NCBI GenBank assembly: GCA_030648515.1
Contig: JAUSHK010000005.1
Coordinates: 226,895-278,130, forward strand
Direction of reading: 5' to 3'
DNA from: Candidatus Jorgensenbacteria bacterium
GTDB lineage: Bacteria; Patescibacteriota; Minisyncoccia; UBA6257; GWB1-50-10
DNA length: 51,236 bases
The position numbers were made by a program, and so were the translations under genes. Below the pieces are notes generated by a model, which saw only the letters and a list, made by a program, of their open reading frames with translations, was not told where the DNA came from and searched no databases. Below, piece after piece: positions 16,728-31,957 of the stretch. Position 1 is the stretch's first letter. Each line of letters opens with the position of its first letter.

Positions 16728-19277
16728 TTATTGAGTCGGCTTGCCTACATTCACGCAATCGGCGTTTGTAAGGCACTGCCGTTCGGACTTCTCGCCTAAA
16801 GCGTTCGGGCCCCATTGCTTGATTGATGTGTTGCAAAAATTATTTCCGGCGCAGATCGGGCGCGGCGTTTGGTCTGCGTCTTTCGGAAGCGGCGAGGCGA
16901 GTGTTTTTGTTGCGGCTACGTTTGACCAGCCCGAACATCCTCCACTTGTTCCTCTCGGGCACAACCGCACGCGATATATGTACACCGTGTCGGAGTGGCC
17001 TATGTCCTGAAATGACGACCCGGGAGCCATCTGCGGCATATCAACAAAATATATTTCGTATTGCGAAAGCAATGTTTCCCCGTGCGCGACGAATGAATTT
17101 TTTATAAGTTCAATGGTGCTTCTAAGCTTTTCTAATGCCGCGCCGTACCAGTTTTGCAAAATATCCACTATTGTTTGCGCCTGTTTTTTAATAACGTCGT
17201 AGACCGACGCGGTGTATCCGCTTTTCATCGCAAGCGTTGCGAACTTGCTTACCGCGATTCTCGCTGACGCGATTTTTTGCGCGTCGCTCGTTACTTGCGA
17301 AACAAACTCGGAAATGCGCGGCAGCGGCAAAGAAATTTGTTCCAGTAGCGCCGCGGTTGCTACTTTTTTATTAAACACCGCTGTTACGCTGGCATTCCCC
17401 CAAAGTAATACATCGCAATATGCGCTCCCGCCGCTGCACGTTCCGCCCGACCAGTTCGTAAAAGAATATCCGGCCGCGTACATGGGAGTGAGCCGCACCT
17501 GCGTGCCACTGTCATAGCTCGTTTCGCACGGCGCGTTCATGTCTTTGCATGTTGCTTCAGCTCCGAGCCCAGGGCCGTTCAATATCGTTGCCGGCGCCGC
17601 GATAACTTTTTCCTGTACTTGGTTGCCGTACGCGCCGAGCGGCTCAAATGACGTGGTAATATTGCTTCGGAACGGGGCGAACCGCGCGGTTACCGTGGCA
17701 TTCCTTATAATTTGAAACGCGCATATTTTACTTAATGTGTTAGTGCACACGTCCTGATTCCAATCGCGGAACACGAAGAGCGCTTCCGGATTTGCGGTAA
17801 GCGTTACCGTGCTCCCGCGTATGAAAGCGGCTGAAGCGGTGGAGGAACCCACCGTGCACGTTGTTCCGCATACAATGGTATTGCCGTCGGTTATCGTTCC
17901 GCCGGCTTGCGGATCTTTCATCACCCTTACGGTGTAATATTTTTTAGCGAACGTCGCCGTTATCACCGCATTGCCGGAAACGCTGCACGTTCCAGTTCCG
18001 GAACATATTCCAGCCGGATCAGACCAGCCGACAAACACGAAATTTTTTGTCGCGTCGTCTGGATATAGGGAATCAGTAACTGGCGTTGCGGTGAGTTGTA
18101 CCGTCGTCCCCGCTTTGAATGTCACATTCTCCATCCGTGTGCATGAATTTGCTCCGCACGTTACGGCAATACTGCTAGTTGAGTCGCCTGCCGTCCCCCT
18201 GCCGTCTCCGCTTCCGATAAGCGTCACGAGAAAATCCGTTGCCTGTGACATTTCACTGGACATTGAGTATGTGTATCCGCCGCCCAGGATGTCGTAGTAT
18301 GCGCGGACTACATATTTGTACGTAGTGTTTGTCTTGAGCCCCGTGTCAGAATATTTCATCACGCCGGTTAGTGCTCCTTTTGTCGCGTAGTTGTCAAATT
18401 TTTTAATTAACAATCCATCGCGGTAAAGTTCGTATCGCGTATCTTTTTTGGAATTATCCGTCCACTGCACGTCTATGCTTGTAGTCGCAACGCTTACTGC
18501 GGCGAGTTGTGTCGGAGCGTTCGGCTGCGTTGTTATTCCCACGCTCGCGGTATACGGCCCGCACGGCGTGTTCGGTTTTGCATTCAAATCAGCATTTATA
18601 TCACCCGCACCTTTAACTGTGTAAAAACTTGCAACATCAATCGTTGAACAAACAGTCGCGCGGTAGTAGTACGTCGTTGCTTCGCCAAGTCCGGAATCTA
18701 AAAACGCGAACCGGCCGGCGTTGGGAACAAGCACGCTGTTTTTTAGCGGCGGACTATATGTTTCACCGCGGTCGTAAAGAATTTTATTCGTAGCGTCGAA
18801 TGTTGTGAACCGTTGCGCCGAGTTCGCGTTTGAACTTCGCATAAATCTCCCGAAATACGGCGTTTTCGTCGTGCTGTTTTGCCATATGAGTTTTACGGAA
18901 TTGGGGCCGGTTGAGGTCGCCGAGAGATTTTCGCTTTGCGCCATTTCAAGCGCGATGCGCTGGATTTGAAACTGGTACGGGGTCGCCCGCGTCGCGTTAT
19001 CTCTCCAGTTTATATAAATAAGCGACGTATTATTCACGAACGCTTTTAAATCGGATGGCGCTTCGCTTCCGGTAGCTGAAATGCTTCTAACTGCAGCGGG
19101 CGCGGAAACGGCCGGAGCTTGCGCTACAGAAACAGCGGGCGCCGGCGGCGCTGGTTCGGCAAGTTTTACGTTCGCCTGCTGAGCCGGCTGTGTTTGAGCC
19201 GGCGGAAGCGTGCGCACGATAAAAATCACTTCTATTACAATTATGAGCGAAACAACAAAAAACAAAACTATCCGCAT
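16728..19277 (-). CDS. FN3 and InlB-B-like repeat surface protein with Cys-rich C-terminus
   Basis: N-terminal TM (MRIVLFFVVSLIIVIEVIFIV), FN3 repeats, GWSDPAGICSGTGTCSVSG-type repeats. The upstream start at 19361 would overlap a terminator hairpin, so 19277 is preferred. Confidence 0.75.
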   Translation of the reverse strand: MRIVLFFVVSLIIVIEVIFIVRTLPPAQTQPAQQANVKLAEPAPPAPAVSVAQAPAVSAPAAVRSISATGSEAPSDLKAFVNNTSLIYINWRDNATRATPYQFQIQRIALEMAQSENLSATSTGPNSVKLIWQNSTTKTPYFGRFMRSSNANSAQRFTTFDATNKILYDRGETYSPPLKNSVLVPNAGRFAFLDSGLGEATTYYYRATVCSTIDVASFYTVKGAGDINADLNAKPNTPCGPYTASVGITTQPNAPTQLAAVSVATTSIDVQWTDNSKKDTRYELYRDGLLIKKFDNYATKGALTGVMKYSDTGLKTNTTYKYVVRAYYDILGGGYTYSMSSEMSQATDFLVTLIGSGDGRGTAGDSTSSIAVTCGANSCTRMENVTFKAGTTVQLTATPVTDSLYPDDATKNFVFVGWSDPAGICSGTGTCSVSGNAVITATFAKKYYTVRVMKDPQAGGTITDGNTIVCGTTCTVGSSTASAAFIRGSTVTLTANPEALFVFRDWNQDVCTNTLSKICAFQIIRNATVTARFAPFRSNITTSFEPLGAYGNQVQEKVIAAPATILNGPGLGAEATCKDMNAPCETSYDSGTQVRLTPMYAAGYSFTNWSGGTCSGGSAYCDVLLWGNASVTAVFNKKVATAALLEQISLPLPRISEFVSQVTSDAQKIASARIAVSKFATLAMKSGYTASVYDVIKKQAQTIVDILQNWYGAALEKLRSTIELIKNSFVAHGETLLSQYEIYFVDMPQMAPGSSFQDIGHSDTVYIYRVRLCPRGTSGGCSGWSNVAATKTLASPLPKDADQTPRPICAGNNFCNTSIKQWGPNALGEKSERQCLTNADCVNVGKPTQ

Positions 19278-19298
19278 TAGGTTTATTATATCACCAAT

Positions 19299-19335
19299 AA
19301 AATCCGCTCCGACTTTTTGCCGGAGCGGATTCCGC
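19299..19335 (-). terminator. Intrinsic terminator of the 1817-aa surface protein gene
   Basis: Perfect 11-bp stem AATCCGCTCCG / CGGAGCGGATT followed on minus by TTTTATT. Confidence 0.7.
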
Positions 19336-19381
19336 TTCAAATTTTTTCTACTCACTACCAACTACTCACTTCCGTTACTAC

Positions 19382-22300
19382 CTACCTCTCCCTGAACGTC
19401 TGGTCCGCGCGGCCGACATCGCGGCAATCGGCGTTTATCTGACATTGTTGTTCCGATTTTTCATTGGCGCCGTTGTAAGATTGCGTGATTGAGAAGTCAC
19501 AGAAGCTTGGCTTACATATCGGCCTGGCGGTGCTATTTGAAATAATTCCTGCGCTATCAAGCGTCTTTGTTGCCACCATATTTGACCACGGGGTGCACGT
19601 ACCACCCGAGCATAATCTCACGCGGTAGACGTACACTGCGTTTGCGGTAAGTCCCATGTCATTATAGAAAGAGTCTGCTAAGCCACTCTTAATTGAAGTG
19701 AAGTAACTTTCTTGTATAGACGATTGTCCGTGAGCGGTAAACAGGTTCATCATGAATTCGGATGCGCCGTTTAGCGCGTCTGATATTGTGCTATACACAT
19801 TGAGCGGCGCGATTATTTTTTGCGAAGAGCTATTAAACGCCGCGTTGTATGCCGAGGCAAAGTTTGTATTTCTCTCCGGCACGCTGATTCTGATACCCTC
19901 CGAGATTTGTGAGAAAAACGCGCCTACACTCGGAAGTGAGAATGAAACCTGATTTGAATTGAGCGCGCTTGCCGTTGTTTTAGTAAACACTGCGGTTGCC
20001 TGTCTTGAGCCGACAATCTGAGCAGTGTCGCATACTGGCGATGTACTGCCAAAACATTCTCCTGTCCCCCAATGCGTGAAAGAGTATCCGGTAACTGGCT
20101 GAGCGCTCAACCGCATTATTGTATCGGTTGTTAAACTTATTGCGCACGGAGACATGGAATCCACGCAGTTTATTGAGCCGCTCCCGCCGCCGGTAGCTGT
20201 TCCAGTAACCCGGTTTCCATTTGAACCCGCCGGCTGAATTGTCACTGTGAGCGTACTTACGGATGAGGCGAAGTTGGCGGTTGTATCTGCGTCCCGTGTT
20301 ACCTGGAAGCTACAAGTTAGATTACTTATGCCATTGCACGGCGATGGAGCAATTTGGCCTGAGGGATCTGTTGATATCCAAGAAGAGAGAATGTAATTAA
20401 CATTGGGGCTCGCGGTAAATTGAACGGTTTGTCCGCGTTCTATTATTCCCGAACAAACTCCGCTTGCGCACGAAAGGTCATTTGAAGCGATTAATCCTTT
20501 ACCGCCATCATATCGGGCGTACACCCTATAATATTTGAGCGCGAAGTTTGCAGTTATATCTGCATTGCCAGAAAGCGTGCATTTTTCGCCTTTTGCGCCG
20601 CTTATGTTTTGGCAACTACCGCCCCATCCGGCAAACACATAATCTCCTTGTGCTTGTGTCGCAGTGAGTGTGACGGTTTGGTCATTTTTGAACACAATAC
20701 CAGTGCATGTGGTTTCCCCTGGGTTGGGCCCGCAATTAATTTTATCTCCACTGACGCCTGGAATATCACTCGTCACGGTTCCCTGCCCGTCACCGCCTCT
20801 TGTAACCGACACGATATAGTCAGTTTTCTGATTTACCGCTATCTGGTTTGAGTATAGTTTGCTCTGCCCTCCTGGAATATTGTAATAGGCGCGCACTGTG
20901 TAGGCGTATGTAGTACCCGCATTAAGCCCGGCATCCGTATACTCTATGGTATTTCCAACGGTGCCTTTTATAGTTGCGCTGGATTCAAGCGTCTTAATTA
21001 CCGCGCCGTCGCGCACAACTTCGTACCCAGTTTCTTTTTTGGAATTATCAGTCCATGAGAGCTTAATACTTTTATCCGTAACTTGGACCGCTTGCACGCC
21101 TGACGGCGCGTTCGGCCACGTTGTCGTTTTAACAGACGTTGTATACGGCCCACATGGAGGATTAGGTTTCCCCGCGCTCAAATCCATATGCGCGTCCGTT
21201 GCCCCTTTCTTTGTGTATATATCCGGAATCGGAAGCGATGAACACGCGCGCGCCTTGTACCAATACGTCGTAACTTCATCAAGACCATTCCCTTGGTCCA
21301 ACGAGTATGTCGGCGACGCCATGGGCCCGTTTTGTTGCGTGTTGTCTTCCACTGTCTTCACTGTTGAGAAATTCTGGTCAGTGCTTCTCGCAAACTGCCC
21401 CGTGAACGGCTTTGTTGTGCTATTTTGCCACACAAGTTTTGTGGAATTGGACCCAGTTGATGTCGCGGTAAGGCCGGTGCTTTGCGCCATATCCAAACCG
21501 AAGCGTTGAATTTCAAACGTGTATGAGCCAGCTGGACGCGTGGAATTATCTTTCCAGTTCAGATAGACAACCTTGTCGCTGTTTGCAAACGCTTTGAGGT
21601 TTGACGGCGTTTCATTTGTTGTTTGCGCCGTTCTGCATGGCTGCGTGTTTTCTATTTCCTTTGTAAATTGCGGCGCCGGGCTTGAGTATGCCGCGTCCAA
21701 CTTATAGTAGTAATCCACGCCTGATTTCAGGCCGACATGAGTATATAAACCGCTGCTTGGTGACGGTGAATTTATTTTTGTCCACACGCCGGAAGCGCCT
21801 TCTTTATATAAGAGAGCGAGTGTATGCGGAGCATAGGTTGTGTAAGACATGTCTGTGTAACGCTTGGTCCAATTTACATCAATCGTGTTCTGATTCTTCG
21901 GCACGCACGTTGGCGGATAGTACGGGTCCAGTGCGGAAAATGTAAACGAATCGCTTACTTTTGAATTGTCCTTTTTCATTGCCTTCACTGTTATATTATT
22001 TTGGTTTACCTGCGGCGCGGTATATGTCGCCTCCCCGTAGGTGTCGGTGCTCTCGGGAGTTATTGAACCGCACGTTCCACCTGGTGGACAGGTTATGGAC
22101 CAATCAGCCCCCAACCCCGAACTCACCTTTGTTTTAAATTGTTCAAGGATTGCGAGGTCTCCATACGGCTCTGTTATGCTAAATTCTCCAGGCGGCGTTG
22201 TGAACGCCACATATTGGCCGTAACCCGTGCCCCCCGCGAAGTTTGTCGCGAATGCACGGACGTGATATGTGACGCCAGGGGTAAGTCCCGTTAGCGAGCC

Positions 22301-24835
22301 GACAAATGCCCCAATTCCGAAGGCGCCGTTTTCTACTGGCGTCGTCCACATGTCGGTTTCTGTCGTACCATACTTAAACCCGCGGACCGACGCATTCTCT
22401 CCGCCTGTCGCGGTAATGGTTCCGTTTGCCGTTGCTCCCCCTCCCGTTATTCCCGTTGGTGCCTGCGTCGTTACAGTCGGCGCGACTGTCTGCGAAATAC
22501 CCGAATGATTATCCTGTGGCAACGGCGATTGTGTTGTGAATTGTTGATCAAAACCATAACCTGTTCCGCCTGTCTGACCCGTTTGATTTGTAGCAAAAGC
22601 GCGAACGTGGTATATCGTTCCGGGCGAGAGGCCTGTTAACGGCTTATTAAACGCTCCTGTTCCAAATGAGCCAGGTTCGCTTACCGTGTTTCCATACATT
22701 GCCGTAAGTCCGTACTCAAATCCGCGGACTGTTGCGTTTTCCCCGCCGGTTCCCGTGATTGTTCCATTCGCCGTCGCGATTGTTTCTCCTATATTAGTAG
22801 CGCCTCCCGTTGTTACCGCCGGAGCGGTGATGGTTGGAATAAATGTGGTTCCGCCGCAGTTCGCCCTGCATACGTTATCGGAACAGCGCGTGGTACCCGT
22901 AGGGCAAGAAGTGTCTACAATGATATTCGGCGTAGTGCATAACTTTGAGACATCCATCGCAAAATTGTCGCCATATTTCGTTTCAAGCTTGAACGTATAA
23001 TCCGCGTCTGAATAAAGTCCGGTTAAAGTTTGTGAGTTGCTTCCAACCGAGGGAATTGCGGCGGCTGTCGCCCATGGACCGCCACTGCTATAGAAAAGCG
23101 TAAGCGCGTGCTGGGCGTAGTTCGCCTCCGTGTATTGCTTCGCCCAGCTGACATTAATTGAGCTTGCATTAATAGTGTTGCATGACAGGGCGTACGGCGT
23201 TATAACAGCAACCGTTTTGGAATCCGTTTTTTTACTAACTTCCGTAGTATTTTCTATCGCGGTAATTACCACGGACTGCGTGGTGTCAGGCGCGGTATAT
23301 GTCGTTGACTGGTTTGTATTCGTTGAAGCTTTTGAAAAAATGCCGGCGGTCGCGCTCCAGTCCGTTTTATAATCGCTAACGTTCAAATCTACTTTCTCTC
23401 TAATCGCAAGTGGCGTCCTGCTTCCGGTTATTGAGAATGGCAGTAGGGGCGGAATGTCCTTTGATTTTGATATTGTAAAGCTTTGCCAAATTGGGATTTC
23501 GGGACCGGTCTTTTCTATTATTAGTGGGAGGGCGCTTGGATCGGTGTCTGATAATAAATTTGTGGCAAATGCGTAATATTTATAATCCCCCGCGGCAAGA
23601 TTTTTAAGCACTACGCTGAATGAGTTTGATGTCTGGAGAGCCAATACGGTTTGTATGGTGCCGTCTATAGTGCCATCTGTTTTGAGTTTGTAATAATTAA
23701 AACCTCTGTACTTAATCGTCGTCCAGTCCGCATCTCCGCCGATATCGCTAACGTTGCCGGTTAATGTAACCGAATTTTGCGCCGAGTTTTGCGCCAACAC
23801 TGTATTTATCAAACTGGCAAAATTCGGCGTTTTAGCAGAACTCACCACCGCGGATTTTGTTACCACCGTTGGCGGATTTGCTTGTGTTATAGCTTTCGCA
23901 TCAAATGTGCTGTAATTCCTAATAGGAACACCATAGACATCTTTTGCTTTATCATTTTCAGCAAAAGCCCTTACTGAATATTTGGATCCTAATAAAACAT
24001 GTGGACCTTCTGTTGATAGTGAGAAGTTATGTATTAAGAGTGGGTTATTTTGCTTTGTAAGTGCTGTAATTCCATTTTTATCTGTGTACGAAAAACCAAC
24101 TACTGTAATCTTCGTATTTGTCCCTCCAACACCTCCGATACTTGAAACATCGCCGGTTGCGGTTATTGATCTTGTTGCGGTACTTACCGCGCTTCTTGTC
24201 GCAACAGTCGGCCCGACTGGCTGAGCTGGCGGTTGTGGCGGAGTAACTGCCACCGTGTCCGCTGTTATGCCGTCAATAGGCAGTGTGTCTGAAAAATTTA
24301 TTCCGCCAACGCCTCCGCGTTCCGCGTTTTGAGTTGTGCCGGAAAACCTGATGCGGTTACTACCGCCAGTAATTATATTGAACGTAACACCGCTCAAATT
24401 TATAAATCCTCCGGTATTTTCGGAATATGCATATCCGCTTAGGCTTTGGTTTGTCGTGTCGAATTTTGCTTCATTGCATTGAGCGCCTCCGCAGTGATTC
24501 GCGAAATTTTTACCGAATACAAGCGACCCAATGGACTCGAAAGTGTTGTCAAAGCGCATATCCGCTGACCCGGAAAGATTACCAAAATCGTCCGAGGACA
24601 CATTTGACGTTATGGTTCTACCCAACCCATTAATTGTTTCATTATTTACATTGAATACTACCCATATTAATTGCCCTTCGCCTATATTCGCAGTTTTCGC
24701 GGCGCCATACATCTTTGTAATTTTGTACCCCATGTACGGCTGTGCCTGCGCCTGCGTAAACTGCGCGGACATTGTTAACGCAACCCCGACCGCGATTACA
24801 ACTGCAAGCCCGCCGAAAAGTAAAATCTTTTTCAT
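19382..24835 (-). CDS. Giant (1817 aa) secreted FN3/repeat surface protein
   Basis: Signal peptide, cohesin-like N-terminus, repeated TVTTQAP..GENA.VRGF.YG..YHVRAFATN modules, FN3, GWGGSCQNISGAKGEKCTLSG repeats, Cys-rich tail. Confidence 0.85.
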   Translation of the reverse strand: MKKILLFGGLAVVIAVGVALTMSAQFTQAQAQPYMGYKITKMYGAAKTANIGEGQLIWVVFNVNNETINGLGRTITSNVSSDDFGNLSGSADMRFDNTFESIGSLVFGKNFANHCGGAQCNEAKFDTTNQSLSGYAYSENTGGFINLSGVTFNIITGGSNRIRFSGTTQNAERGGVGGINFSDTLPIDGITADTVAVTPPQPPAQPVGPTVATRSAVSTATRSITATGDVSSIGGVGGTNTKITVVGFSYTDKNGITALTKQNNPLLIHNFSLSTEGPHVLLGSKYSVRAFAENDKAKDVYGVPIRNYSTFDAKAITQANPPTVVTKSAVVSSAKTPNFASLINTVLAQNSAQNSVTLTGNVSDIGGDADWTTIKYRGFNYYKLKTDGTIDGTIQTVLALQTSNSFSVVLKNLAAGDYKYYAFATNLLSDTDPSALPLIIEKTGPEIPIWQSFTISKSKDIPPLLPFSITGSRTPLAIREKVDLNVSDYKTDWSATAGIFSKASTNTNQSTTYTAPDTTQSVVITAIENTTEVSKKTDSKTVAVITPYALSCNTINASSINVSWAKQYTEANYAQHALTLFYSSGGPWATAAAIPSVGSNSQTLTGLYSDADYTFKLETKYGDNFAMDVSKLCTTPNIIVDTSCPTGTTRCSDNVCRANCGGTTFIPTITAPAVTTGGATNIGETIATANGTITGTGGENATVRGFEYGLTAMYGNTVSEPGSFGTGAFNKPLTGLSPGTIYHVRAFATNQTGQTGGTGYGFDQQFTTQSPLPQDNHSGISQTVAPTVTTQAPTGITGGGATANGTITATGGENASVRGFKYGTTETDMWTTPVENGAFGIGAFVGSLTGLTPGVTYHVRAFATNFAGGTGYGQYVAFTTPPGEFSITEPYGDLAILEQFKTKVSSGLGADWSITCPPGGTCGSITPESTDTYGEATYTAPQVNQNNITVKAMKKDNSKVSDSFTFSALDPYYPPTCVPKNQNTIDVNWTKRYTDMSYTTYAPHTLALLYKEGASGVWTKINSPSPSSGLYTHVGLKSGVDYYYKLDAAYSSPAPQFTKEIENTQPCRTAQTTNETPSNLKAFANSDKVVYLNWKDNSTRPAGSYTFEIQRFGLDMAQSTGLTATSTGSNSTKLVWQNSTTKPFTGQFARSTDQNFSTVKTVEDNTQQNGPMASPTYSLDQGNGLDEVTTYWYKARACSSLPIPDIYTKKGATDAHMDLSAGKPNPPCGPYTTSVKTTTWPNAPSGVQAVQVTDKSIKLSWTDNSKKETGYEVVRDGAVIKTLESSATIKGTVGNTIEYTDAGLNAGTTYAYTVRAYYNIPGGQSKLYSNQIAVNQKTDYIVSVTRGGDGQGTVTSDIPGVSGDKINCGPNPGETTCTGIVFKNDQTVTLTATQAQGDYVFAGWGGSCQNISGAKGEKCTLSGNADITANFALKYYRVYARYDGGKGLIASNDLSCASGVCSGIIERGQTVQFTASPNVNYILSSWISTDPSGQIAPSPCNGISNLTCSFQVTRDADTTANFASSVSTLTVTIQPAGSNGNRVTGTATGGGSGSINCVDSMSPCAISLTTDTIMRLSAQPVTGYSFTHWGTGECFGSTSPVCDTAQIVGSRQATAVFTKTTASALNSNQVSFSLPSVGAFFSQISEGIRISVPERNTNFASAYNAAFNSSSQKIIAPLNVYSTISDALNGASEFMMNLFTAHGQSSIQESYFTSIKSGLADSFYNDMGLTANAVYVYRVRLCSGGTCTPWSNMVATKTLDSAGIISNSTARPICKPSFCDFSITQSYNGANEKSEQQCQINADCRDVGRADQTFRER

Positions 24836-24926: not shown

Positions 24927-24956
24927 AACCCCAAAGTGTTTAAATACTTTGGGGTT
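24927..24956 (-). terminator. Intrinsic terminator overlapping the stop of the radical SAM gene
   Basis: Perfect 11-bp stem AACCCCAAAGT / ACTTTGGGGTT. Confidence 0.6.
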
Positions 24957-26187
24957 TAGGGAATACGTCTTGCTTTAAAAGATGTTCATTAAACGCCGTA
25001 ATGCTATAAGGGTCAGGCGTCGTCGTATCTTTATGAAATATAAACGAGCGAGCTTGACACCCGCCTAGTCCATCCAACCTAAATTGTTTGAATATCTCAT
25101 GGTTTTTCCACGTTTCAATAAATTTTTTATCAAACAATGGTAAGTCCTCGGGTCGGTAATAGCCAGCGTAAACAAGTGACGGACAGGGAAGCATTTGCCC
25201 CGTAGTATTGATTACCAAGCCAGATTGGGCAGCCCGACATTCGTTGTAGACGCGGCCATTGAGTAATTTACCAACAATCGCGGCATTTGAAATGCCGACC
25301 TCGTACACTCCAGCCTGTCTGAGTCGAAAGAGATCAATAACAATGTCAAAAAACGTTTCAGGTCTAAGCGTCAAACTTTCGTGCGCCGACTTGAAAGGCT
25401 TGAATAGGTTGAAATTACAAATCACGCCAATAGTTTTGCAATAATCAAGTATTTCACGATAAGTCGGAGCATTTATTGCGTTCAAGGTAGAAATAACCTC
25501 GACTTCAATGCCATGTTGTTGAAGTCGCTGAATCGCTGCTTCAACTCTCCGGAACGTACCCTTGCCACGGATGCGATCGTGCTCTGATTCTATCCCATCC
25601 AAGCTCACAAAAATCGAGAGGCGTTCTACAGACGCGAGCCAGTCCGCTGTTGTTTCATCAATTAGAAGACCATTCGTTACGGTGTCGATGGCAAATTCGT
25701 GTTTTTGACAATGTTTGAGAATTTCCTGGATATCGGGATGGAGAAAGGGTTCGCCACCGATGACACTCACCTCAAAAATCCCTGCATGGGCGAGGATATC
25801 AAGGATCTCAAATACTTTCCCTTTCGGCATAAACACCTCAGAATAGTTATCCTGAAAACAATGCAAGCAGCGCAAATTACAGCCGGTTGTCACTTCAAGT
25901 TCAACACCCAAAGGAATGTCGGTTTGCGTCTGCGTGATCAGGCTGAACCTTTTAGGACTCAGTTCTTCCTCAACTTTATTGATGAAATCTGTGACATCCA
26001 CTTGAGCTTCGGCTAACTGTACTCCGTACTCAATTGCAATGGCGTGCGTTATTTCGTCAACGCTGTTTTGCTGGTTGAATAAAGAATTAAGAATTTTCGC
26101 TCCCAGCTCGTTTACTCCCACGATTCTACGAGAATCTATGAAGTAGGCGAAAATTTGGTCACCATCACTTCTGATTTTGACTAACAT
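24940..26187 (-). CDS. PqqD-like domain + radical SAM peptide maturase with reduced SPASM/Twitch-like C-terminus
   Basis: N-terminal PqqD-like region (ILNSLFNQQNSVDEITHAIAIEYGV...V..FINKVEEE); radical SAM CNLRCLHC; VIGGEPFLHPDI; C-terminal CRAAQSGLVINTTGQMLPCPS and GGCQARSF. Confidence 0.87.
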   Translation of the reverse strand: MLVKIRSDGDQIFAYFIDSRRIVGVNELGAKILNSLFNQQNSVDEITHAIAIEYGVQLAEAQVDVTDFINKVEEELSPKRFSLITQTQTDIPLGVELEVTTGCNLRCLHCFQDNYSEVFMPKGKVFEILDILAHAGIFEVSVIGGEPFLHPDIQEILKHCQKHEFAIDTVTNGLLIDETTADWLASVERLSIFVSLDGIESEHDRIRGKGTFRRVEAAIQRLQQHGIEVEVISTLNAINAPTYREILDYCKTIGVICNFNLFKPFKSAHESLTLRPETFFDIVIDLFRLRQAGVYEVGISNAAIVGKLLNGRVYNECRAAQSGLVINTTGQMLPCPSLVYAGYYRPEDLPLFDKKFIETWKNHEIFKQFRLDGLGGCQARSFIFHKDTTTPDPYSITAFNEHLLKQDVFPKPQSI

Positions 26188-26213
26188 ATGACTCCCTTCT
26201 TTATGTTTTAGTA

Positions 26214-26248
26214 GAAAAAAAGGGGCCTGATTTTATACTTGGCCCCTT
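26214..26248 (-). terminator. Intrinsic terminator between precursor peptide and maturase genes
   Basis: Minus strand AAGGGGCC-AAGTATAAAATCA-GGCCCCTTTTTTTCTAC: 8-bp GC-rich stem plus T-tract. Confidence 0.8.
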
Positions 26249-26278
26249 AAACTCCTACTCGGTGGTTGGTTACTCCAC

Positions 26279-26449
26279 TTATTGGTATTTTTTTGCTTGT
26301 CCAATAATCAAGGCGGCTCTCGCGTTACCTCTCTTGCCTACCTGCATTGGACCCGGAACTCCTCCGCAACTACGGAGACAACAGCCTGATTCCACCGGTT
26401 CTGGACTTGATCCCTTGATGGTTACCGCTGGTTTTTCGTAGGTTTTCAT
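26279..26449 (-). CDS. Candidate RiPP precursor peptide (56 aa)
   Basis: MKTYEKPAVTIKGSSPEPVESGCCLRSCGGVPGPMQVGKRGNARAALIIGQAKKYQ*; strong SD (AAGGAGGTGAGAACC-ATG); YxxPxVxxxG leader motif; CCxxxC core; directly upstream of the radical SAM maturase. Missing from the 60-aa-cutoff ORF track. Confidence 0.8.
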   Translation of the reverse strand: MKTYEKPAVTIKGSSPEPVESGCCLRSCGGVPGPMQVGKRGNARAALIIGQAKKYQ

Positions 26450-26509
26450 GGTTCTCACCTCCTTACCTACCGTTATGGTTTCTATATTGTTTTGAAGTAT
26501 CTGGCCTAA

Positions 26510-26537
26510 ATACTAACAGAACCGTGGGATTTGTAAA
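26510..26537 (-). promoter_or_regulatory. Predicted promoter of precursor/maturase operon
   Basis: Minus strand TTTACA-N16-TAGTAT upstream of the precursor. Confidence 0.5.
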
Positions 26538-26549
26538 GAACGCGTTCTT
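26536..26549. promoter_or_regulatory. Perfect 14-bp palindrome, candidate operator
   Basis: AAGAACGCGTTCTT between divergent promoters, overlapping the predicted minus-strand -35; a similar half (TGTAAGAACTTGCGTT) follows. Confidence 0.45.
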
Positions 26550-26589
26550 CTGTAAGAACTTGCGTTTTTCCTTCTCGTATTGCAGAATA

Positions 26590-26618
26590 TTGACAGTAAA
26601 TTGCAAAAGGAATCTAAT
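26590..26618 (+). promoter_or_regulatory. Predicted promoter of the ABC-F gene
   Basis: TTGACA-N17-TCTAAT just upstream of AAGAGG-N8-ATG. Confidence 0.65.
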
Positions 26619-26633
26619 TAAGAGGAAACGCAT

Positions 26634-28229
26634 ATGATTCAAATTCGTAATGTCAGTAAAAGCTACGGGCCTCGGACTCTCTTTGAGCGACTCACGGTCT
26701 CAATTGATCGCGGGCAAAAGTTTGCATTAGTGGGTCCGAACGGCTCTGGTAAATCAACTCTCTTAAAAATTCTCTCTGGTACGGAAGTGCCGGACGAGGG
26801 TCAAGTAACGTACGGGGACAGTGACTGTGTAGGCTACCTCCCTCAAGAAATTGCCATTGAGTCAAATCAGTCAATTCTCAACTACGTGTCGGAATACGTT
26901 GAACATCGAAAAGGGCCAGGCACTTTTTTGCCGGTAAAGCATCGCATGCTTGCGATGATGGATACCTGCAAATTAAGCGCACTTTCAACGGATCGTTCTG
27001 TCACGTCGTTGAGCGGCGGAGAAAAAACAAAGATTGCTCTCATTGCCGTCCTATTAGCCGAACCAAACTTCCTTGTGCTTGATGAACCGACTAATAACAT
27101 CGATCTCCCGACGCTTCTGTGGATTGAGGCATATTTGCGGCAAACCGATGCTGGGGCAATAGTGGTATCTCACGACCGGAGATTTCTTGAGCGCGTGACA
27201 AATCGTGTGATGGAAATTGACCCGCACACCACGTCTGTAACGATACGTCGTGGAACTTTTACCGACTATCTCCATGACCGAGAAAAAGAACGGGTGCGTC
27301 TTCTGCAGATGTATGAGGAGCAACGAGTGGAGGTCAAGCGACTTACTGAACAAGCGGTCCGTCTGCGCGCCGCGGGGGAACAAGGATCTCAATGGGTTGG
27401 CAGTGACAACGACAAGTTTCTTCGGGGATTCAAACGAGATCGTGCCTCAAAGTCGGGGAAAAAAGCGAAAGTGATTGAAAAGCGTATTGAGCAGATGGAA
27501 CACATTGAACGTCCATTGGAAAACAAGGAACTGCAGTTCCGGCTCCGCCCAGACATTACCAAAGGATCCGGAGATATCACACTTGAACATGCGATTACTA
27601 AGTATCCCTCTGGATTTTCGTGTGGGCCGATATCATTTTCCATTCCCTACGGGTCTCGAATTGTGCTTATGGGCGCGAACGGTGCGGGAAAAAGTACGCT
27701 TCTTAAAATGATTTCTGGAGAGATTCAGCCAGCGTCAGGCATTATATACCGCGGACAGGGAATACGTTTCGGCAATTTCTCACAGGGGCACAAAACGCTT
27801 AATTTGAAACAAACCCCGCTTCAGTTGATTCAGGAAAAAGCCACGGTGCGCGAGCAAGACGCCTATGCTGTTTTGTCTTTGTACGGAATCAAAGCAGAGA
27901 AGACGGATCAACTAATTGGTTTACTAAGCCCCGGGGAGCGAGCACGAATACTTCTTGCGCTGTTCTCTGCGCTTTCGGCAAATGTTCTTTTACTTGACGA
28001 ACCAACTAATCATCTTGACATCGAAGCGCAGGAGGCGCTTGAAACGGCGTTGAGGAATTTTACAGGGACACTTGCGTTGGTTTCCCACGATCGGCTTTTC
28101 ATTGACCGGATTGGCGTAGCCGATATATATGTGATGGAAAATGGCAAACTAGGAAGGAAAGAAAATCTCCATGCATATATGTCTCAAGTTGAACGGATTT
28201 CACAAAAAATGTTACGAGTACTTGTATGA
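26634..28229 (+). CDS. ABC-F family ATPase (two ABC domains, no TM)
   Basis: Walker A GPNGSGKSTLLK and GANGAGKSTLLK; LSGGEKTKIALIAVLLAEPNFLVLDEPTNNIDL and LSPGERARILLALFSALSANVLLLDEPTNHLDIEA; charged linker. Confidence 0.93.
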   Translation: MIQIRNVSKSYGPRTLFERLTVSIDRGQKFALVGPNGSGKSTLLKILSGTEVPDEGQVTYGDSDCVGYLPQEIAIESNQSILNYVSEYVEHRKGPGTFLPVKHRMLAMMDTCKLSALSTDRSVTSLSGGEKTKIALIAVLLAEPNFLVLDEPTNNIDLPTLLWIEAYLRQTDAGAIVVSHDRRFLERVTNRVMEIDPHTTSVTIRRGTFTDYLHDREKERVRLLQMYEEQRVEVKRLTEQAVRLRAAGEQGSQWVGSDNDKFLRGFKRDRASKSGKKAKVIEKRIEQMEHIERPLENKELQFRLRPDITKGSGDITLEHAITKYPSGFSCGPISFSIPYGSRIVLMGANGAGKSTLLKMISGEIQPASGIIYRGQGIRFGNFSQGHKTLNLKQTPLQLIQEKATVREQDAYAVLSLYGIKAEKTDQLIGLLSPGERARILLALFSALSANVLLLDEPTNHLDIEAQEALETALRNFTGTLALVSHDRLFIDRIGVADIYVMENGKLGRKENLHAYMSQVERISQKMLRVLV

Positions 28230-28688: not shown

Positions 28689-29933
28689 ATGAGAAAATCC
28701 TTAGCACTTTTGATTGTTGTAGCGTTGCTTGGATTTGCGGCGCCTTCCAAGGCGCAGATCCAAACCGATCCAGTCAATGGATGGTATCCGGATTCAGTAT
28801 CGTCTGGCGTAACCAAGTTTTACCAAAGGTTCGTCAAGAACGATAACCCATTCTCAAATGATTTAGGAAAGGGTTCCCAGCTTTTTGGGGTAGCGATGAA
28901 AGCGGGAAAGAAAATTTTGATGAAAAAGGATTTAGAGAGAGAACAAGATTTACCGGCAAAGGGATTAACACTAAAGCTTGACTTTAATTACGTTACACTT
29001 AAACCGGACAGTACACCCTTTGGATTTAATTTCTTTTTTTCTCATGGTGATACTGTAATCTATTCTTTTGGACACGAGGTCGAGCAACGTGTGGCAAGTG
29101 AGTGGGGTCGTATTACTTCTTCCGTAACCTATCTAAATGACTATGGCTACGGTATCCAAAAAATCGATGCAATTGGATTTGAATTTTACGCGCGCGGTAA
29201 AGATATTGAGTTAGCGGAAATCATGCTCGATAATCTGATTCTCATCCAGGACAGCTCCGTAGTTGTCTTGGACAACTTCGACGGCGACGCGGGTATTGCG
29301 AAAGCATCATTCTCAATGCCCGAAGGAACATACGATTTCGGTGTTGTGAAATTCGGAGAAAAAAAGACAGTAATTCTACGCGCCAGAAATGACACAACGG
29401 ATAGGGCCGGAGGAACCGCCTATGTTACTGGAACCCAAAGCAGGGATCCGCGGATTACAGTAACTCCTGACACAGCAATCATTAGTCCTGGAAATTATAA
29501 GGACTTCAGAGTTACCTACGCTCCTATAGCTGGGATGGGACCAGGGCCTTGGTACATCGTTTTCAATCTTGAAAATTGCGTCACATCAGCTGAGTCAGTG
29601 TCAGTCACCGCCGATATCTCAACGGGCATTGACGACGAAACTGGCGATACCCCAGGAGTTTACTCATTGGGCAAGAACTATCCGAACCCTTTCAACCCAA
29701 CGACAAACATGAAGTTCACTATTCCCAAAGCTGGGATGGTGGAGTTCACAATCTACAGCATCCTTGGACAAAAGGTTAGGACACTTATCAGAGAACCGAT
29801 GAGTGTCGGTGTTCATGAAATCGCATTTGATGGACGCAACGACTCAGGCGAGAAACTTGCCTCCGGCGTTTATATCTATCAAATCGAGTCAGAAAATTTT
29901 ATCAAAGCCAGAAAAATGGCCATGATGAAATAG
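28689..29933 (+). CDS. Secreted protein with C-terminal T9SS type A-like (Por/FlgD-like) sorting domain
   Basis: Signal peptide MRKSLALLIVVALLGFAAPSKAQ; C-terminus YSLGKNYPNPFNPTTNMKFTIPKAGMVEFTIYSILGQKVRTL...GVYIYQIESENFIKARKMAMMK. Confidence 0.85.
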   Translation: MRKSLALLIVVALLGFAAPSKAQIQTDPVNGWYPDSVSSGVTKFYQRFVKNDNPFSNDLGKGSQLFGVAMKAGKKILMKKDLEREQDLPAKGLTLKLDFNYVTLKPDSTPFGFNFFFSHGDTVIYSFGHEVEQRVASEWGRITSSVTYLNDYGYGIQKIDAIGFEFYARGKDIELAEIMLDNLILIQDSSVVVLDNFDGDAGIAKASFSMPEGTYDFGVVKFGEKKTVILRARNDTTDRAGGTAYVTGTQSRDPRITVTPDTAIISPGNYKDFRVTYAPIAGMGPGPWYIVFNLENCVTSAESVSVTADISTGIDDETGDTPGVYSLGKNYPNPFNPTTNMKFTIPKAGMVEFTIYSILGQKVRTLIREPMSVGVHEIAFDGRNDSGEKLASGVYIYQIESENFIKARKMAMMK

Positions 29934-30817: not shown

Positions 30818-31957
30818 ATGGAACAGACGGCTAAAAGAATTCTGAATAGGTCCTCCTTGAGTATCCCTTGCCACTGGGATAAGGAAGTGATGGATCGGAT
30901 TGTAAACATCAAGGCAGTAAATGGCATTAAGGTGATGGAGGTTTACGGCGTTCTTGCTGAGGGTGGGCCAGTTGGTCATGGCAGATCCAGAAACTCAGTT
31001 GTAAATATTGAAATGGATGACGCCTTAAAATTCAGAGCTTACTTGAAAAACCTGGGGTTAAGGTTTGTTTATCTCTTAAATGCTCCGTTTAAATTCGATG
31101 GAAGTGCGGAACAAAAAAAGCAACTCAATAGTTACCTTGAGTGGATCTTGGGAAGTCTTCGCCCTGACGCATTAACACTTACCTCGCATGAATTAATGAG
31201 ATATGTTAGGGTGCTGGACAAAAAAATTCCGCTCTATATCTCGACTATAGCCGGGATTAAATCTTGGAAAGATTTGGAGGAATTCCTTGATATCTCCCCG
31301 AGTAGGGTTATTCCTCATCATGACGTTGGGAAAGACTGGAAAGTTTTTATGAAACTTAGCAAATTTTGTAAAAAGGAGGGTGTAGAGATTGAACTAATGG
31401 CCACTGAGAGTTGTCTCTTTAGATGTTCTAGAAGGGATGCCCACTACAAGTATTTATCACAGGGTAGCAGGGATGTATCATTCCACGTAGTTTGCAATAG
31501 TAGAAAATTAATTCATCCAAGGGAATTTCTTTTAGCTGGTGGGGTAATCAGACCTGAGGATGTCTGCATCTACGAGGATGCTGGTGTGACATGCTTTAAA
31601 ATAACGGGTCGTTCAAAACCGTCTAACTGGCTTCCTGAGGTGGTTAATGCTTATCAGAACAGAGGGTATAACGGTAACCTTATACGACTGCTCGGAATTG
31701 ATCCATCTCTTTGTGCTGAGAATTGGATATATATTAGCAATGCCGCGCTCAACGGATTTCTTGGTGGGTTTATTAATAAAAAAACACGCCGCGAGATGAT
31801 CCGTTACTCCGAAACATGGATTGCTATGTTATACAACAATGGGCAATTTAAATTGTTCGATGGATCTCAGTATAAGCAAAGAAATGGATCGCTTGTTTTG
31901 TCTGACGATGGCGGAAAACAGGCAAAATTAATCATTTCCCGCGAATCGGAAAAATAA
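30818..31957 (+). CDS. Peptidase U32 family-like protein
   Basis: ELMATESCLFRCSRRDAHY and GGVIRPEDVCIYEDAGVTCFKITGRSKP...VVNAY resemble U32/UbiU-type Cys motifs. Confidence 0.6.
   Translation: MEQTAKRILNRSSLSIPCHWDKEVMDRIVNIKAVNGIKVMEVYGVLAEGGPVGHGRSRNSVVNIEMDDALKFRAYLKNLGLRFVYLLNAPFKFDGSAEQKKQLNSYLEWILGSLRPDALTLTSHELMRYVRVLDKKIPLYISTIAGIKSWKDLEEFLDISPSRVIPHHDVGKDWKVFMKLSKFCKKEGVEIELMATESCLFRCSRRDAHYKYLSQGSRDVSFHVVCNSRKLIHPREFLLAGGVIRPEDVCIYEDAGVTCFKITGRSKPSNWLPEVVNAYQNRGYNGNLIRLLGIDPSLCAENWIYISNAALNGFLGGFINKKTRREMIRYSETWIAMLYNNGQFKLFDGSQYKQRNGSLVLSDDGGKQAKLIISRESEK

Follow-up and report, generated by a model that had tools for sequence, protein, structure and literature searches.

Closest described systems

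SkfB, the sactisynthase of the sporulation killing factor of Bacillus subtilis, combines an RRE, a radical SAM barrel and a Twitch domain with a single auxiliary cluster, and its precursor contains Cys (PMC6231123). The module described here, from Candidatus Jorgensenbacteria, resembles it in these respects, but the precursors are unrelated, and the module lacks transporter genes and is linked to ribosome-protection genes. Those sactipeptides that PMC8183687 discusses act on membranes. SuiB (streptide) and CteB (thermocellin) have the same three-domain architecture as the maturase of the module, and PqqE and MftC its core architecture. All four have different precursors, and SuiB, CteB and PqqE are only 15-18% identical to the maturase. 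Unlike the latter, SuiB and CteB carry a full SPASM domain with two auxiliary clusters (PMC6231123).

With regard to the presumed target, two RiPPs, klebsazolicin and phazolicin, bind in the exit tunnel of the 50S subunit (PMC5960728, PMC8183687), which an Erm or ABC-F protein would protect; they are made by azole chemistry, whereas no azole enzymes occur in the module. In a review, the RiPPs listed as targeting the ribosome are LAPs, thiopeptides and bottromycins. The antibiotic-resistance ABC-F proteins (NF000355: Msr, Lsa, OptrA, PoxtA and TlrC-type) share a broad model and intact ATPase motifs with the ABC-F studied here, which is nevertheless only 25-31% identical to the tested named proteins and belongs to a separate patescibacterial clade. 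A relative of Erm(42)/Erm(53), the 23S A2058 methyltransferases, is found in one of seven loci and not in the window, that is, the whole stretch of 51,236 nucleotides analysed. RiPP-type clusters are likewise described in small-genome CPR bacteria, namely graspetide (PMC8939145) and YcaO (PMC12153355) clusters, but their enzymes are ATP-grasp and YcaO proteins, and the bearing sections of both papers describe no radical SAM/ABC-F unit. The sequence-only reading, which considered any RiPP system in a small-genome patescibacterium noteworthy, needs the qualification that such clusters have precedent in this radiation.

Organization of the locus

An ORF and domain check confirmed all three genes, and the gene content of the unit is thereby shown. 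The precursor gene (26279..26449, reverse strand) starts with ATG and encodes 56 aa (MKTYEKPAVTIKGSSPEPVESGCCLRSCGGVPGPMQVGKRGNARAALIIGQAKKYQ); its Shine-Dalgarno region AAGGAGGTGAGAACC (26450..26464, reverse strand; Shine-Dalgarno sequence AAGGAGGTG) lies directly before the start codon. The maturase gene (24940..26187, reverse strand; 415 aa) is co-oriented with it and ends in a terminator-like hairpin (24927..24956, reverse strand). The gene of a ribosome-protection-like ABC-F ATPase (26634..28229, forward strand; 531 aa) is divergent from both, across a divergent promoter region of 184 bp shared with the precursor (26450..26633, strand-neutral). The arrangement first proposed, a 56-aa peptide with a co-oriented maturase and a divergent ABC-F, thus held in full, as did the shared region of about 180 bp.

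Between precursor and maturase, a hairpin AAGGGGCC/GGCCCCTT is followed by a T-run (26215..26248, reverse strand; z -2.95), and comparable hairpins occur at the same site in three related loci (G134, L062 and G310). It likely serves as a leaky terminator that keeps the precursor above the maturase, a function that is inferred. An Rfam search of the window returned matches to tRNAs only. Aminoacyl-tRNA synthetase genes (ileS, cysS, pheST, alaS) are located nearby; no background comparison is available and no association is claimed.

The maturase

The maturase meets the SkfB-type layout, with the order RRE-radical SAM-Twitch and about three C-terminal cluster cysteines. PqqD (PF05402) was matched at aa 18-74 with 36 bits against a cutoff of 23.4, as expected of a leader-binding RRE, and Radical_SAM (PF04055) with 84 bits, the barrel motif being CNLRCLHC. 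SPASM remained below threshold (E=0.12), indicating a reduced, Twitch-like C-terminal domain, in which C317, C335 and C377 are invariant in all seven homologues. These scores bear out the early proposal of a PqqD-like N-terminus and a reduced SPASM/Twitch-like C-terminus. The enzyme is the sole PF04055 match in its genome (691 kb, 100% complete).

Its structure model (pLDDT 80) matched the RiPP maturases SuiB, CteB, SkfB, TigE and PqqE in Foldseek, with SuiB at the top and SkfB at rank 16; the best PDB profile match was SkfB (97 bits). Two family models were missed: the best NCBIfam match, mycofactocin maturase MftC (TIGR03962), reached 100 bits against a cutoff of 265, and the SkfB family model TIGR04403 64.6 bits against 300.

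Distribution and the conserved precursor

Six more maturase homologues (38–54% identical) were recovered from other families and orders of the same phylum, making seven loci with the window. An alignment-based scan of genome contigs was successful, whereas a single-sequence maturase scan, with overly strict peptide patterns, had come back empty. Only these seven loci are known, mainly from draft metagenome-assembled genomes, and the distribution of the module across genomes is very patchy. Neither a maturase scan of viral contigs nor a DNA search of plasmids gave a match.

In every locus the maturase is adjoined by a small ORF, divergent in one, whose core matches that of the window precursor, so that the short leader-core precursor gene expected of a RiPP cluster is present throughout. 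The conserved core, ESGCCLRSCGGVP (26354..26392, reverse strand), covers precursor residues 20-32 in an alignment of the seven sequences: E20, G22, C24, G29 and G30 are invariant, and GCC..SCGG is present in six. The core DNA pattern had exactly one match per genome in six of the seven genomes, and a reversed control pattern had none. Recurrence beside all maturases together with this single match per genome indicates an arrangement beyond chance. Comparison with the precursor of G134 (pN 0.14, pS 0.86) shows purifying selection. Two candidates were discarded: four core-pattern matches in viral contigs lay in unrelated reading frames with no comparable precursor and were rejected as chance, and the leader matched DUF5972 too weakly for use (E 0.13).

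Linkage to ribosome-protection genes

Linkage to protection genes is recurrent. An ABC-F of one clade adjoins the maturase in five of the seven loci, in four different gene orders, and no full ABC-F was found in 78 distant radical SAM control loci. The sixth locus (G310) has an Erm-type 23S rRNA methyltransferase in its place, and the seventh (L063), whose core is degenerate, has no protection gene. The maturase and ABC-F trees have one deep split in common, at odds with taxonomy, indicating that the unit seems to move together.

The window ABC-F has two intact nucleotide-binding (ABC) domains, their Walker motifs being preserved, and passes NCBIfam NF000355 (cutoff 380) with 404.8 bits, while the remaining four linked copies score 407-428; it falls below every cutoff of the named resistance subfamilies (Msr, Lsa, Vga, OptrA and others). 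All linked copies lie inside one 100/100 clade apart from the housekeeping references, EttA and YheS-like proteins. They are not monophyletic within it, as unlinked members share the clade, and a paralogue in the same genome (48%) is closer to the window copy than the other linked copies are. An ABC-F on contig C51 of G310 was rejected as a linked copy, being of a different, unlinked type.

The G310 neighbour scored 229 bits with the Erm model (cutoff 212) and 158.7 with the KsgA model, below its cutoff of 171. It is about 40% identical to Erm(42)/Erm(53) over 92-99% of length and groups with them (88/91) in a 95/95 clade apart from KsgA. The genome also has a separate KsgA of its own, and on model scores, tree and gene content together the reading of the neighbour as a KsgA was rejected. 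Only 4 of 384 genomes of the class exceed the Erm cutoff; G286 exceeds it although it groups with KsgA in the tree, which means that passing the cutoff does not by itself settle the assignment. Linkage to an Erm occurs only once, in a convergent and not an operonic arrangement near a contig end. Erm in the place of ABC-F is nevertheless an independent pointer to a 50S target. A separate short leader-like ORF is also present in G310.

On sequence grounds, the sequence-only reading would have been refuted by a small ORF not conserved beside maturase homologues, or by an ABC-F of a housekeeping clade without co-occurrence. Neither came about, and the predicted co-occurrence of maturase homologues with core peptides (7/7) and ABC-F (5/7) held, with the caveat that the ABC-F clade also holds unlinked members.

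Proposed mechanism

On balance, and by a modest margin, the three-gene unit is best regarded as a minimal RiPP cluster of a new family, whose product would act near A2058 of the 50S subunit and against which ABC-F or Erm would serve interchangeably for self-protection; its chemistry and target, like cleavage and export, are inferences. From family knowledge, the PqqD-like domain would bind the KPxV-type precursor leader. The radical SAM centre, together with a single auxiliary iron-sulfur cluster, would then modify the GCCxxSCGG core, most likely to a Cys-derived thioether or another Cys-centred cross-link. Judged from the linked protection genes, the product may act on the large subunit near the peptidyl-transferase centre and the entrance of the exit tunnel, while ABC-F, or Erm in one relative, would shield the maker's own ribosomes. 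The original proposal of one modified-peptide system with ABC-F immunity and a ribosome-targeting product is largely supported; that the peptide is modified, and how, is inferred only. No dedicated exporter or leader peptidase recurs at the loci, although RiPP clusters usually, but not necessarily, include such genes; genomes outside the loci were not covered, and such genes could be encoded there.

Alternative explanations

Instead of being secreted, the modified peptide might be retained inside the cell and act as the toxin of an addiction or phage-defence unit whose antidote at the ribosome would be ABC-F or Erm. The lack of a recurrent exporter or leader peptidase, the patchy distribution and the deep split incongruent with taxonomy speak for it. 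Nevertheless, PADLOC gives generic fold matches only, with no known defence system at unit level, a PqqD-type leader and maturase would be unusual for toxin-antitoxin pairs, and Patescibacteria may rely on general exporters or pili. This reading is considered unlikely. The same holds for a product of mycofactocin or PQQ type, either a redox cofactor or a peptide that binds metal, with the ABC-F as a translation factor that lies nearby for unrelated reasons. The sub-cutoff mycofactocin maturase match, a three-Cys core that could bind metal, and the homologue without protection gene favour it; however, dehydrogenase or cofactor partner genes do not recur, ABC-F stays linked in five loci despite shuffled gene order, with Erm substituting once, and a core cofactor would not be distributed so patchily.

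ABC-F factors relieve nascent-chain stalling, and one adjoining the maturase in five loci could aid precursor synthesis in this way rather than confer immunity. This is very unlikely: G310 has an rRNA methyltransferase there and L063 neither, so peptide production seems possible without ABC-F. Finally, short attenuator ORFs often precede ribosome-protection genes, and ErmCL is annotated ahead of erm(C), but a stalling leader peptide regulating ABC-F is all but excluded because the ORF persists without ABC-F (G310, L063) and can lie downstream of it (L062); moreover, in the window it precedes the maturase and points away from ABC-F, its length and leader-core organization suit a precursor, and G310 has its own leader-like ORF besides.

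Implications

The preferred reading, a minimal RiPP cluster with ribosomal self-protection, can be extended to a horizontally moving RiPP family of ultrasmall bacteria, in which a Cys-rich GCCxxSCGGxP core made by a Twitch radical SAM enzyme would block the 50S subunit at the macrolide site under interchangeable ABC-F/Erm immunity, a non-azole ribosome inhibitor that an episymbiont might direct at its host or at rivals. This bolder version remains tentative, and the evidence falls slightly short of favouring it. Two unlike protection genes predict the binding place of the product, and the three-gene size makes reconstitution practical. If the proposal is true, a new chemotype would join the small number of RiPP classes for which ribosome inhibition is known, and the module would be a concrete candidate for the means by which bacteria that are genome-poor and probably host-dependent fight or manipulate their neighbours.

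Genes of the Module and Host Genome

The sequence-only reading had described a precursor, a PqqD/radical SAM maturase and a divergent ABC-F gene, and all three genes held as described. The precursor gene (26279-26449, minus strand), preceded by a strong ribosome-binding site (AAGGAGGTG), encodes the peptide MKTYEKPAVTIKGSSPEPVESGCCLRSCGGVPGPMQVGKRGNARAALIIGQAKKYQ. The maturase (24940-26187, minus strand) combines a PqqD-like N-terminus (PF05402, 36 bits) with a radical SAM core (PF04055, 84 bits) and a SPASM signal that is sub-threshold only; it is the sole PF04055 match in the host genome (690.8 kb in 5 contigs, estimated 100% complete). The ABC-F gene (26634-28229, plus strand) diverges from the precursor across 184 bp, and its product scores 404.8 bits with the NCBIfam ribosome-protection model NF000355, above the cutoff of 380.

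Directly downstream of the maturase (16728-24835), two genes encode very large proteins that bear fibronectin III and InlB-type repeats. On the other side, a protein (28689-29933) carries a C-terminal domain resembling the sorting domains of type IX secretion (TIGR04183, 36 bits over a cutoff of 23), which is unexpected for a Patescibacteria-like genome.

Relatives of the Maturase and Conservation of the Precursor

Close maturase homologues are rare. In a first search, some radical SAM match was obtained in 35 of 119 genomes, with one true homologue besides the window gene (genome G062, 39% identical). Profile searches at the level of the order (244 genomes), the class (384 genomes), a phylum sample (380 genomes) and 84,980 GTDB species genomes (the last possibly incomplete) added genomes G134, G310 and G504, a Falkowbacteria locus (L062) and a Portnoybacteria locus (L063; G303 was taken as the same genome and counted once). 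The total stands at seven loci at least, the six relatives' maturases being 38-54% identical to that of the window.

A small ORF with a matching core was found in all seven loci, beside the maturase or directly within its operon: ...PEPVESGCCLRSCGGMPAAMQ in G134, ...PEPIEAGCCLTSCGGSPAVMQ in L062, ...PEPVEAGCCLTSCGGSPGGMQ in G310 (start apparently ATT after a good Shine-Dalgarno), ...ESGCCFRSCGGVP in G062, ...ESGCCFRSCGGSP in G504 and EFGFCFRGHGGK in L063, where the core is divergent or degenerate. The core pattern occurs exactly once per genome in six genomes, and a backward control pattern had no occurrence in the same scan. Between the window and G134, 86% of synonymous and 14% of nonsynonymous sites differ over 36 aligned codons (Nei-Gojobori proportions), so the precursor is under selection as a protein. 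Only E20, G22, C24, G29, G30 and leader P7 are invariant in all seven precursors; because of this invariance, the second Cys of the CC pair (C24) is inferred to be the best candidate for an essential modified residue. It is very likely that ORF and enzyme form a precursor/maturase pair.

Putative Protection Genes Beside the Module

An ABC-F gene adjoins the module in five of the seven loci, in varied arrangements: divergent in the window, precursor-ABC-F-maturase in G062, precursor-maturase-ABC-F in G134 and G504, and ABC-F-precursor-maturase in L062. A full ABC-F is absent from all 78 loci examined around distant radical SAM relatives. In G310, the convergent neighbour of the module is an Erm-type 23S rRNA methyltransferase gene (229.1 bits, cutoff 212), on which the KsgA model remains under its own cutoff. 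The protein shares about 40% identity with Erm(42) and Erm(53), with which it groups (88/91) in a clade separate from KsgA, and the genome's own KsgA is on another contig. The Erm cutoff was exceeded in only 4 of the 384 class genomes, and of these at least G286 is placed on the KsgA side by the tree. This Erm linkage rests on one locus, located near the end of a contig. The Portnoybacteria pair (L063, 4690-9238), located between pheS and pheT, has neither protection gene nearby, and its degenerate core lacks two of the three cysteines. Thus, an intact core is accompanied by a protection gene in 6/6 cases and the degenerate core by none.

ABC-F and Erm differ in their biochemistry, yet each defends the peptidyl-transferase/exit-tunnel region of the 50S subunit. 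That both occupy one position next to a common type of precursor is the strongest pointer to the target, which is itself inferred.

The G310 contig also contains a 91-bp direct repeat (98.9% identical; L147, 5401-5491 and 8345-8435) carrying a Shine-Dalgarno and a short ORF starting MSICYSSLTKT. One copy lies upstream of the precursor and the other runs towards the contig end and off it; the repeat is a candidate for an attenuation leader and may also mark a second cassette. Elsewhere, a further Erm-like methyltransferase gene of the Erm(42)-side clade (genome G534; L179, 1375-2262) adjoins type IV pilus-like genes, with no peptide module within that stretch.

Phylogeny of the ABC-F and Movement of the Unit

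The five linked ABC-Fs fall within a clade of eight patescibacterial sequences (support 100/100), apart from EttA, YheS-like, Msr, Lsa, OptrA and PoxtA references. Three unlinked members also lie inside the clade, namely a window-genome paralogue (G000:C5:22009-23637), G052 and G081, so linkage does not define a monophyletic group. The clade is sporadic: 7 of 11 module-free relatives have no ABC-F match (E<=1e-30), and only two (G052, G081) have one of this clade. The maturase tree separates window, G134, L062 and G310 from G062, G504 and L063 (100/99), against taxonomy, as window, G134 and G062 belong to the same order. The same division appears in the ABC-F tree, and this common deep split fits a unit moving as a whole.

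The paralogue (L057, 7007-8779) is 48% identical to the linked copy and 71% to that of G052; nearby are genes recognised by eye as type I restriction-modification-like and one as serine-recombinase-like. In G081, the contig with the ABC-F also carries a possible other RiPP unit (L166, 8380-10430), a 468-aa radical SAM protein beside a 209-aa gene that is C39-peptidase-like by eye.

Predicted Chemistry, Expression and Release

The AlphaFold maturase model (mean pLDDT 80, pTM 0.83) matches SuiB, CteB, SkfB, TigE and PqqE in the PDB, and SkfB is the best PDB sequence by profile. SkfB, a sactisynthase of RRE-radical SAM-Twitch architecture, carries a single auxiliary cluster (PMC6231123). Like it, the window maturase family keeps three C-terminal cysteines (C317, C335, C377), which may hold one such cluster. 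Because of this match and these cysteines, the maturase would, by analogy, introduce a Cys-derived cross-link in the GCCxxSCGG core; epimerisation or a different radical modification remains possible. Between precursor and maturase, a hairpin followed by a T-run (z -2.95) is present, with hairpins in the corresponding position of G134, L062 and G310; this element would keep the precursor in excess over the enzyme.

No exporter or leader peptidase was found to recur across the modules, so release is unexplained and an alternative is still open, namely that the product is possibly an unreleased intracellular toxin with its antidote. A U32-family peptidase-like protein (30818-31957) is a possible leader peptidase candidate, yet it was not seen beside other modules.

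Known Context and Implications

One review gives LAPs, thiopeptides and bottromycins as the ribosome-inhibiting RiPPs, with klebsazolicin and phazolicin binding in the exit tunnel (PMC8183687); a lasso peptide joined the list later (PMC11451635). RiPP clusters are already known from this radiation, including graspetides (PMC8939145) and YcaO clusters (PMC12153355). The open-licence literature searched yielded no account of a radical SAM/ABC-F unit, although absence is not proof. The earlier proposal of a modified-peptide system with ABC-F as immunity held as far as sequence can tell, and we lean, by inference and by a modest margin, towards a product that acts on the 50S subunit and against which ABC-F provides immunity. 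The module would represent a new family within an established class, the RiPPs, and its high interest lies in a target and an immunity that can both be tested directly.
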